DNA of 39,073 bases from an uncultured Erysipelotrichaceae bacterium (GTDB lineage Bacteria; Bacillota_I; Bacilli_A; RF39; UBA660). The stretch lies in assembly GCA_902789225.1 (NCBI GenBank), contig CADANC010000009.1, positions 1 to 39,073 of the forward strand. The letters run 5' to 3'. Made by a program: the position numbers and the translations under genes. The notes under the pieces were generated by a model. The model saw only the letters and a program-made list of their open reading frames with translations. It was not told where the DNA came from and did not search any database. Below, in pieces: positions 34,818 to 39,073 of this stretch; within the stretch, counting starts at the first letter, position 1; every line of letters starts with the position of its first letter.

Positions 34818-36092
34818 ATGCCAAGTGTAGGAATACTATCACTAGGATGTAAGGTTAATACATATGAATCAGAATATATAAGAAACATCTTAGAACAAAG
34901 AGGATATGAGATAAAAGACTTTACTGATAAATGTGATATTTATATTATTAATACTTGTACAGTAACTAATACCTCAGATACTAAATCTAGTAAAATGTTA
35001 CGTAGAGCAAGAAAAGAAAACCCTGACGCAATAATAGTTGCGATGGGTTGTTTTATTGAAAGTAATAAAGATAATCCTATACCAGGAATAGATATAGTAA
35101 TAGGTAATAGAGATAAAGATAAAGTACCTGATTTAATAGATGAATATTTAAAGAATAAAGAAAAAATAATAAGACTATATAAAGGAAGAACAGATATATT
35201 TGAAGATATGTATATAACTAGTTTTCCAGGTAGAACAAGAGCTTTTGTAAAAATACAAGATGGATGTGATAACTTTTGTTCTTATTGTATAATTCCATTT
35301 GTCAGAGGAAAATGTAGATCAAAAGATAAAGATAAAGTAATAGAAGAAATTACTGCATTAGTAAATAATGGTTATAAAGAAGTAGTACTAACAGGAATTC
35401 ATACAGGAAGTTATGGAAGAGATTTAGATATATCATTTGCTGATCTATTAAATGAAATAATAAAAATTGAAGGATTAAAAAGATTAAGAATCTCATCAAT
35501 TGAAGCAACTGAATTAAATGAAGATGTTCTAAATATATTGAAAAATTCAAACATAATAGTAGATCACTTACATATACCATTACAAGCAGGATCAAATGAA
35601 ATATTAAAATCAATGAATAGAAAATATGATTTAAAATATTTTGAAGATAAAATAGCTGAAATTAGAAGTATAAGACCTGATATATCTATTACTACTGATA
35701 TAATTGTAGGTTTCCCAGGCGAAACAGAAGAACTATTTAAAGAAACTCTTAATACTGTAAGAAGAATAAACTTTTCAAAAGTACATGTTTTCCCATATAG
35801 CGAAAGAAAAGGAACTAAGTCAGAAAGACTTCCTAATAAGATACCTACAAATATTAAAAAAGATTATGTAAAAAGATTAATAGAACTATCTAAAGAATTA
35901 GAAATAGAATATGCTTCTAAATTCATTGGAAAAGAATTAGAAATATTAGTAGAACAAACTAAAGATGGATTCTCATACGGACATACATCTAACTATTTAA
36001 ATGTAAAAGTAAAAGGTAATCTTCCTCATAATGAACTAATAAAAGTAAAAATAACATCAGTAGATTATCCTAATGTAATAGGAGAAATATAA
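34818..36092 (+). CDS. mtaB: MtaB: tRNA (t6A37) methylthiotransferase
   Basis: A 424-residue radical-SAM methylthiotransferase that converts t6A37 to ms2t6A in tRNAs reading ANN codons. The N-terminal domain has cluster cysteines C11 (LSLGCKVN), C47 (NTCTVTN) and C78 (MGCF). The radical-SAM triad is C150-x3-C154-x2-C157 (GCDNFCSYC). A C-terminal TRAM domain closes the protein. The LGCKVN and NTCTVTNTSD wording fits MtaB (Bacillus YqeV) rather than MiaB or RimO. ATG 34818 was preferred over GTG 34809, which is too close to the Shine-Dalgarno. The stop overlaps the recD2 start as TAATG. Confidence 0.94.
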   Translation: MPSVGILSLGCKVNTYESEYIRNILEQRGYEIKDFTDKCDIYIINTCTVTNTSDTKSSKMLRRARKENPDAIIVAMGCFIESNKDNPIPGIDIVIGNRDKDKVPDLIDEYLKNKEKIIRLYKGRTDIFEDMYITSFPGRTRAFVKIQDGCDNFCSYCIIPFVRGKCRSKDKDKVIEEITALVNNGYKEVVLTGIHTGSYGRDLDISFADLLNEIIKIEGLKRLRISSIEATELNEDVLNILKNSNIIVDHLHIPLQAGSNEILKSMNRKYDLKYFEDKIAEIRSIRPDISITTDIIVGFPGETEELFKETLNTVRRINFSKVHVFPYSERKGTKSERLPNKIPTNIKKDYVKRLIELSKELEIEYASKFIGKELEILVEQTKDGFSYGHTSNYLNVKVKGNLPHNELIKVKITSVDYPNVIGEI

Positions 36093-38263
36093 TGTTTATT
36101 ATAGGAAATTATAGAAAAGAAATATTTTCTTCAACATCAGGCTATACAGTAGGAGTATTTAAAGTAACAGATACTGAAACCGAAGAATTAGCTAATTTAA
36201 TAGACAGAACAATAACGTTTACTGGATACTTTCATGAATTAAATGAACAAGATACTTATAAACTATATGGAAAAATGGTTCATCATGAAAAATATGGAGA
36301 ACAATTCCAAGTAGATTCATATGAAAGAGTAACACCTAAAGGAAAAGACTCAATAATAGAATTCTTAACATCAGGATTATTTAAAGGAATAGGAGAAAAG
36401 AAAGCAAAAGCAATAGTAGATGTATTAGGAGATAATACTTTCAAAGTAATTTTAGAAGAACCTTCTAATTTAATTCTTATTCCAGGAATAACAGAACAAA
36501 ATAAAAATACTCTTCATTCCAAATTAAAAGAATATGAATCTTCTTATGAAACAGTAATGTATCTAGGTAATCTAGGCTTCAATACAAAAGACTCAATAGA
36601 AATATATAATAAATATAAAGATAGAACTAAAAAAATAATAGAAGAAGATATATACCAAGTAATTCTAGATTTTAATAATATTTACTATAAAAAAGTAGAC
36701 ACTATTGCGATATCATCAGGAATAGAAAAAGATGGGGTAATAAGAATTAAAGCATCAATCTATTATGTAATGAATGAAGTATGCTTCTCATTTGGACATA
36801 CATATCTATATAAAGAAGAGATAGTTAACTACTTAAAAAGATTATTAAGAATACCAATAGATGAAAACAAATTTAATGAAAGTATAAAAATACTAATAAA
36901 AGATGAATTATTAGTAATAGAAGAAGATAGATACTATTTAAAAACATTATATGATAGTGAAAACCTAATAGCTAGAAGATTTAAATTATTAGCTCATGAA
37001 AAACCAATTATATATAAGGATATAGATGATAAATTAAATGAAATATCATCTAATATGGATATTCTATATAACGAAGAACAATTAGAAGCAATTAAATCTT
37101 CAATGGAAAATAAAATGCTTGTCATTACTGGAGGTCCAGGAACAGGTAAAACAACACTAATAAAAGCAATAATAGAATTATATAGAGAATTAAATAAGTA
37201 TTCATATGAAAAATTATTAGATAAAGTAGTATTGCTTGCTCCAACAGGAAGAGCTGCAAAACGTATGAGTGAAGAAACTTCTCTTCCAGCATCAACTATT
37301 CATAGATTTTTAAAATGGCAAAAAGAAACTAATACGTTTGGAGTAAATGAATATCATAAATCTAAATGTGAATTTGTAATAATAGATGAAGTATCTATGG
37401 TAGATATTGAATTAATGTCTTCACTATTAAAAGGAATTAGTGTTAATACTAAAATAGTTCTAGTAGGAGATGATGAGCAACTACCATCAGTTGCTCCAGG
37501 TGAAGTACTACACGATATTATCGAATCAAATATAGTAAAAACAATAAAATTAAGAAAACTATACCGTCAAGAAAAAGATTCAAATATAATAAAATTAGCT
37601 TATGATATTAGAGAAGAAAATCTAAATAAAGAAATATTTAATAAAAGTGATGATCTTACTTTTATAGAAACAGCTAAAGTAATGGATAATATCAAAGAAA
37701 TAGCTAATACATATAAAGATATGTCTTATAAAGATTTTCAAATATTAGTTCCAATATATAAAGGACTACATGGAATAGATGCAATTAATAAAGAAATGCA
37801 AAGTATATTTAATCCTAAAGATTCTCATAAAAAAGAAATAAATATAGGAGAAACTTTATTTAGAGAAGAAGACAAAGTAATACAATTAACTAATCAACCT
37901 GAAGACAATATTTATAATGGTGATATAGGAATTATATCTAGGATAGTTACTTCTCCTAAAAAAGAAATATATATAGATTTTGATAATAATTTAGTAAAAT
38001 ATACTCCAACTAATTTTAGTAATTTTAGATTAGCTTATGCTATAAGTATTCATAAATCACAAGGATCAGAATTTAAAGTAGTAATAATGCCTTTAGTAAA
38101 AGGATATAATAAGATGCTATATAAGAAATTAGTTTATACAGGAGTAACTAGAACAAAAGAAACTCTATATTTAATTGGAGAATATTCTTCACTTCAATTA
38201 GCAGTTAGAAATAATATTGAAGGTTTAAGAAGAACAACATTAAAAAATAGATTATTAATATAA
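36092..38263 (+). CDS. recD2: RecD2: SF1B 5'-3' DNA helicase
   Basis: A 723-residue RecD2 (RecD-like without RecBC). The N-terminus (about 1-85) is OB-like, then helix-hairpin-helix repeats (LFKGIGEKKAKAIVDVLG; ILIPGITEQNK). The helicase core has Walker A GGPGTGKTT at 347-355 (K353), LLAPTGRAAKRMSE, Walker B VIIDEVSMVDIELM, the VGDDEQLPSVAPGEVL motif, KLRKLYRQ and the C-terminal SIHKSQGSEFKVVI and VYTGVTRTKE motifs. RecD2 aids replication forks and repair. It complements AddAB, for which it is not a subunit. It is coupled to mtaB by a one-base overlap; a terminator covers its stop. Confidence 0.96.
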   Translation: MFIIGNYRKEIFSSTSGYTVGVFKVTDTETEELANLIDRTITFTGYFHELNEQDTYKLYGKMVHHEKYGEQFQVDSYERVTPKGKDSIIEFLTSGLFKGIGEKKAKAIVDVLGDNTFKVILEEPSNLILIPGITEQNKNTLHSKLKEYESSYETVMYLGNLGFNTKDSIEIYNKYKDRTKKIIEEDIYQVILDFNNIYYKKVDTIAISSGIEKDGVIRIKASIYYVMNEVCFSFGHTYLYKEEIVNYLKRLLRIPIDENKFNESIKILIKDELLVIEEDRYYLKTLYDSENLIARRFKLLAHEKPIIYKDIDDKLNEISSNMDILYNEEQLEAIKSSMENKMLVITGGPGTGKTTLIKAIIELYRELNKYSYEKLLDKVVLLAPTGRAAKRMSEETSLPASTIHRFLKWQKETNTFGVNEYHKSKCEFVIIDEVSMVDIELMSSLLKGISVNTKIVLVGDDEQLPSVAPGEVLHDIIESNIVKTIKLRKLYRQEKDSNIIKLAYDIREENLNKEIFNKSDDLTFIETAKVMDNIKEIANTYKDMSYKDFQILVPIYKGLHGIDAINKEMQSIFNPKDSHKKEINIGETLFREEDKVIQLTNQPEDNIYNGDIGIISRIVTSPKKEIYIDFDNNLVKYTPTNFSNFRLAYAISIHKSQGSEFKVVIMPLVKGYNKMLYKKLVYTGVTRTKETLYLIGEYSSLQLAVRNNIEGLRRTTLKNRLLI

Positions 38264-38287: not shown

Positions 38288-38303
38288 GATAATAGGTGAT
38301 TCT

Positions 38304-38810
38304 ATGAAAGATAGAAAAGGATTTACTTTAATTGAATTATTAGTAGCGATTACTATAATTGGAATTATTATGATTATGACTTTACCAGCTATTCATAATT
38401 TACAAAGACAAAACCAAGAAAAGAAGTTTGATGATTATGAAAGAACAGTATTAGAAGCGGCTAAAGTATATGAAGATCAATATGAAGAAGATCTTTTTGG
38501 AAGAAGTGAGACAGGTTGTGCTTTTATTGATTATAATAGCCTAGTACAAAAAAAACTACTAGCTACAACAAAAATATCAGGATATGAATGTAAGAATAAT
38601 AATAATGGTATAATCGTAAGAAAAATAAAAGGAACATCATACTATGAAGTATATCTAACTTGTAGTAATGGTGGTGATACAAAAAATTTAACAGGTAATA
38701 ACGGAAACTATAATCATATTAAAAATAGTCTTTGTAATTCTGGTGAAGATACAGACCCTCCACAATTAACAATAAAATGTGATGGAGATAATCATGAGTT
38801 AGGAGTATGA
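38304..38810 (+). CDS. Type IV prepilin-like protein, frame ends early
   Basis: A 168-residue frame. The N-terminus MKDRKGFTLIELLVAI is a canonical class III prepilin leader: cleavage after Gly6, Phe +1 and Glu +5, then a hydrophobic pilin helix (residues about 7-29). The globular part has four or more cysteines (TGCAF, YECKN, LTCSN, SLCNS) and ends with a DPPQLTIKCDGD strand typical of the start of an Ig-like module. ATG 38304 follows AGGTGAT; a longer start at 38286 precedes that site. The TGA at 38808-38810 looks premature because the next frame continues the same type of sequence. The pilD product (20729) would process it and PilC (19191) would assemble it. Confidence 0.9.
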   Translation: MKDRKGFTLIELLVAITIIGIIMIMTLPAIHNLQRQNQEKKFDDYERTVLEAAKVYEDQYEEDLFGRSETGCAFIDYNSLVQKKLLATTKISGYECKNNNNGIIVRKIKGTSYYEVYLTCSNGGDTKNLTGNNGNYNHIKNSLCNSGEDTDPPQLTIKCDGDNHELGV

Positions 38811-39073
38811 TGGAAAAATATATTATTATTCCGCAACTAATACAGAAGGACCTAAAAGAATACCAAAACTTACAGTAGAAACATCTGATACTATTTCTGG
38901 ATTAGAAAAAAATGAATATGTAACATATGAATGGAAGATGTATCCAAACAAAATATTAGCTGAAGAAAATCCTAACTATACAGAAAAGAATAAAACTACT
39001 TTCAATGTAAAAGATGGAAATAGATCAATAGCCAAAAAAAACGTAAGAATAATAGAACAATTCAAAGAAAAAA
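38803..39073 (+). pseudogene. Continuation of the prepilin gene in the +1 frame (open to window end)
   Basis: The +1 frame opens just after a TAG at 38800-38802 and has no stop for 90 codons to the edge. It encodes YDGKIYYYSATNTEGPKRI, then strand-like Thr/Glu/Lys-rich sequence with a GLEKNEYVTYEWKMYP segment, which looks like an extracellular Ig-like module. It has no Shine-Dalgarno/ATG start in a suitable place: the first in-frame Met is at 38938. A one-base skip between 38803 and 38808 would join it to the prepilin. Assembly error, true mutation and programmed shift are all open. Confidence 0.65.

Follow-up and report, generated by a model that had tools for sequence, protein, structure and literature searches.

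A large type IV prepilin gene at the edge of a draft contig from an uncultured Erysipelotrichaceae bacterium, most probably interrupted by a non-programmed indel

Comparison with an intact paralogue and with the adjoining contig shows that two reading frames at the right-hand end of the window (the whole 39,073-nucleotide stretch of DNA analysed here, which is the complete contig C9 of a metagenome-assembled draft genome of 1.6 Mb in 43 contigs) are, as judged from their predicted products, parts of one coding sequence for a single large prepilin. We conclude with high confidence that a non-programmed indel is by far the best reading of the break between them. The gene would specify a short N-terminal pilin head and then a long, cysteine-containing C-terminal extension. 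Just after the head, in the linker of variable length, an insertion or deletion whose length is no multiple of three would have shifted the frame; as the sequence stands, translation would terminate after residue 168, leaving the extension unmade. The features on which this reading is built are collected in Table 1.

Table 1. Features at and around the interrupted prepilin gene (window coordinates)
Feature	Position	Strand	Remarks
recD2, conserved upstream neighbour	36092..38263	+	TIGR01448, 4.9e-221; 92% nucleotide identity in sister genome RUG343
AGGTGA, probable ribosome-binding site for the prepilin	38294..38299	+	similar one in paralogues
Prepilin frame (frame 0), 168 aa/codons (MKDRKGFTLIELLVAITIIGI...HELGV)	38304..38810	+	ATG 38304, TGA 38808-38810
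Linker with break	38780..38813	+	relatives differ by whole codons
AGGAG	38801..38805	+	from codons ttA-GGA-Gta
+1 frame, continuation of the prepilin C-terminal extension	38803..39073	+	
26-nt match to the start of contig C12	39048..39073	+	at that length nowhere else

The gene start was assigned by reading the sequence, and lies 18 nt downstream of the start of the listed open reading frame (38286). The frame-0 protein carries a GFTLIEL prepilin signal and a hydrophobic helix at its N-terminus, and profile searches returned matches to PF07963 (N_methyl; 6e-10) and TIGR02532 (9.9e-8). A pilus assembly ATPase is encoded elsewhere in the genome (PF00437 at C7:38956-40101, 2.2e-117); its link to the window pilin is putative. 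A first-pass annotation of the same DNA had described a prepilin frame ending in TGA with an AGGAG motif just before the stop, and a +1 frame, overlapping it by a few bases, that stays open to the window edge and encodes matching sequence. Direct reading of the sequence bears out all of these points. The +1 frame is preceded by a TAG codon (38800-38802) and is then open from the GAG at 38803 up to the contig edge, it encodes the stretch of the protein that follows, and the two frames overlap by 8 nt. The description of the frame as ‘broken by one base’ went further than the sequence allows: what is known is a net shift of +1 (equivalent to −2), and an out-of-frame deletion of more bases is just as possible, because the break sits in a linker that is longer in some relatives than in others.

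Several observations tie the two frames together. At the GC content of the readable part of the genome (24.6%) about 9% of random codons would be stops, and by our own arithmetic 90 open codons would arise by chance with a probability of approximately 2e-4. Against the intact paralogue C5b (709 aa, on contig C5), the frame-0 protein shows 88% amino acid identity over residues 1–172 and the +1 frame shows 66% identity to residues 178–267. The corresponding dN/dS values are 0.16 before the break, 0.31 after the break within the window (88 codons) and 0.43 in the continuation on contig C12, and the second frame is under purifying constraint. Contig C12, whose first bases match the last bases of the window, holds the rest of the pilin gene up to C12:1372, followed by a gene for a type II topoisomerase B subunit (gyrB/parE-like). 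Joined in this way, the second frame runs for 536 codons without a stop and the total length of the gene resembles that of C5b. The adjacency of the two contigs is supported by sister genome G003, where recD2 and the gyrB/parE-like gene occur in the same order on one contig (C26), about 4.5 kb apart. Because the downstream frame is both stop-free over 536 codons and under purifying constraint, the break is young or not real. Between recD2 and the gyrB/parE-like gene, a conserved position (window 38264 to C12:1490, and the equivalent part of G003 C26) appears to hold variable cargo: RUG343 has a large pilin there, as the window does, and G003 has two surface-polysaccharide-type genes. The predicted structure of the read-through product (pLDDT 36) was unusable past the N-terminal helix.

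Large prepilins of the genus are normally encoded by one long frame of 572–922 aa. Uninterrupted examples comprise C5b and C5L2 (572 aa) in the same genome, RUG343 C39 (585 aa), and three genes in G002 and eight in G003 (636–922 aa). The homologues are thus intact and do not have the break in common with the window: in no paralogue or sister gene examined is the frame shifted at the window's site. When the window is aligned with three relatives, it is shorter precisely at the join. The first-pass annotation had proposed that sibling genomes might expose an assembly or strain-specific indel; that comparison held for paralogues and for other loci, all unshifted, and failed for the true orthologue in RUG343, of which the contig carries only about the first 50 codons and so ends before the break position. 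A scan of GTDB r220 returned matches to RUG343 contigs only, and a scan of IMG/VR returned no relatives.

Within the indel explanation, an assembly artefact (a wrong join or collapse in a repeated pilin family) is somewhat more likely than a recent strain-level mutation; we would assign the artefact a little over half of that explanation, and the mutation the slightly smaller remainder. The background rate of such breaks was gauged with a heuristic coding-score scan of the genome, covering all contigs other than C8 and C37–C43 (which read as N), with candidates inspected individually. Of the 20 candidate pairs, 10 were ordinary neighbouring genes, two were IS3-type OrfA/OrfB pairs, whose junctions are known programmed −1 sites, and eight were apparent broken genes, a number that includes the window and leaves seven other non-transposon breaks. 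One of these is in a conserved oxidoreductase gene (C5:14312; L108), which has suffered an 88-nt out-of-frame loss relative to RUG343 and G003 (both intact) and is flanked on either side by sequence of about 95% nucleotide identity to RUG343; this case indicates that frame-breaking losses happen in this assembly where phase variation or recoding is implausible. For two other breaks (on C14 and C22) no convincing sister-genome counterparts were found. Elsewhere in the genome, the frame of a coiled-coil repeat protein (C5:89762; L112) breaks where a tract of about 36 nt is duplicated, and two repeat-containing surface proteins with frame breaks (C10:37646, L123; C30:1674, L135) look Cna-B/SpaA-like by eye.

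The pilin family is also hard to assemble, because several contig ends fall inside its genes (those of C9 on the right and of C12 on the left, both ends of C5, and ends of RUG343 C41 and C94). RUG343 itself comes from an Illumina study that used MEGAHIT and idba_ud assemblies, and the authors of that study describe collapsed repeats as an issue for any short-read assembly (PMC5830445). A chimera formed at an exact repeat was considered and rejected, as no repeat of at least 17 nt spans the linker (Table 1); a simple de Bruijn branch error exactly at the break lacks support for the same reason.

A point against the indel reading is that the same general region is also interrupted in two other large prepilins of the genus, a pattern not expected of purely random error. 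The RUG343 gene on C38 (L042 2030-3767) loses its frame at about codon 122–125, about 40 codons upstream of the window's break position, with several tens of nt missing. The G003 gene (G003:C5:54508-55086, minus strand; L174) has an in-frame TGA in the linker, where relatives have a conserved cysteine, and is otherwise open for 550+ codons; this TGA is most likely a nonsense mutation. In all, about 16 large prepilins of the genus could be assessed, and three of these are broken at codons about 122–168, by different lesions; their predicted products are about 140–170 aa long, from genes of about 570–920 codons. No breaks were seen elsewhere along the large prepilins that were checked. The linker is an expected place for harmful indels, since in-frame indels concentrate there, but this does not hold for a nonsense mutation, and the clustering of the three linker breaks is unexplained.

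The clustering might reflect long/short switching at the level of the population, in which the genes are repeatedly truncated between head and extension and the truncation is reverted or replaced via recombination with other pilin copies, an explanation that we consider unlikely. Also in its favour, several copies have near-identical N-termini (92% nucleotide identity between the window and C5c, with exact tracts of 50–56 nt), C5L1 and C5L2 appear mosaic, and in N. gonorrhoeae frameshifted silent copies yield pilus phase variants (PMC4877100). At the join itself, however, there is no repeat or recombination signature, and none of the N-terminal tracts common to the copies runs across the break. 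The remaining paralogues of the window genome are in frame, and at about 40 further short-prepilin loci across the family no broken continuation was seen. Moreover, the linker is the part of the protein that tolerates indels, all of the genomes concerned are draft assemblies, and the clustering was noticed after the fact; our own estimate of its chance is about 1% if break positions are uniform. Large prepilins also stand as tandem pairs at the ends of contig C5 (L009 2-3378 and L010 2941-5581); their N-termini are conserved, whereas their C-termini have diverged. In L009, the copies are about 90–98% identical over most of their common length and then 40–80% identical, in a mosaic-like pattern, and one of them is without about 75 nt, in frame.

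A related proposal, that large prepilins of this genus are recurrently turned short by any linker lesion, with plain and adhesin-like pili then mixed at the level of strains, and that the window would be an ‘off’ allele, strikes us as very unlikely. If long-read genomes bore out the cluster of linker breaks, this would suggest that short pilins are selected for in uncultured Firmicutes of the gut or rumen. Phase variation by strand slippage is unsupported, because there is no repeat at the join: neither a homopolymer nor a short tandem repeat is found there, and an AAAAA tract (38814) and a short TAT run (38821) both lie downstream.

Production of both a short and a long pilin by a programmed +1 ribosomal frameshift would account for the AGGAG near an in-frame TGA, for the +1 continuation and for a downstream frame kept stop-free, and had been raised in the first-pass annotation through a likeness to the prfB site. 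We regard it as highly improbable. The consensus for the prfB +1 site is AGGGGG, 3 nt, CTT-T and TGA-C (PMC12421855), and the prfB gene of the same genome (C2:104850, minus strand; L093) has the standard site TGG AGG AGA CTT TGA, which provides a positive control within the genome. The codons at the join of the window gene read TTA GGA GTA TGA T. The slippery CTT-T is absent, its place being taken by GTA TGA T (38805-38811), and the tRNA that reads GTA cannot re-pair with TAT in the +1 frame. The AGGAG ends 2 nt from the stop, whereas the Shine-Dalgarno-like element is required 6 nt before the stop and 3 nt before the slippery codon. The motif itself arises from Gly-Val codons that C5b also has, and occurs in the genome at 1.2 per kb of coding sequence (present in about 1% of random 12-nt coding stretches and in 3.8% of the last 12 nt of genes). 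RNA folding indicated no structure downstream of the break, a region less structured than average, and Rfam and tRNA scans of the window gave no matches. The shift site is not conserved in any paralogue or sister gene examined, which largely refutes programming; in the GeneTack study, a conserved site was needed for a programmed frameshift, and unclustered frame breaks were attributed to errors or indels (PMC3711429).

The likeness to prfB therefore fails on slippery codon, spacing and conservation, and the suggestion of a phase-variable or programmed long and short pilin finds no support in a tandem repeat or recoding signal. The more mundane alternative offered alongside it, a simple indel or assembly error, is favoured by the intact relatives and the missing recoding signals. 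The least credible arrangement, two separate genes, one for a short pilin and one for another protein whose translation would start by reinitiation, can be set aside: AGGAG does precede ATG codons at 38807 and 38810, but these belong to the third frame, where a stop follows about 21 codons beyond the TGA, the +1 frame has no possible start codon until 127 nt past the TGA, and relatives encode both parts of the pilin as one protein. The case carries a caution: in a draft assembly, a Shine-Dalgarno motif, a TGA and a +1 frame can look convincing in combination and yet reflect an ordinary indel.

Taken as an indel, the break resembles the GeneTack ‘singleton’ class (PMC3711429), in which a single non-conserved break separates halves homologous to one protein with no recoding signal; it differs in that the genus has two further members of this pilin family interrupted at nearby positions through different lesions. 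What it has in common with the prfB +1 frameshift is the in-frame TGA, the continuation in +1 and the purine-rich AGGAG upstream, but it has no CTT-T run, the wrong spacing, a T rather than a C after the stop and no conservation. As with the Neisseria pilE frameshift variants, a type IV pilin is cut short in a genome that holds several copies of such genes; in contrast to them, no silent-copy arrangement or donor tract is apparent here, and the pilins are long, with large C-terminal extensions. The protein otherwise conforms to PF07963/GFxxxE type IV prepilins, having a class III signal and a hydrophobic helix in a genome with one T2SSE-type ATPase gene, and is set apart from ComG-type pilins by a far longer extension of several hundred residues.
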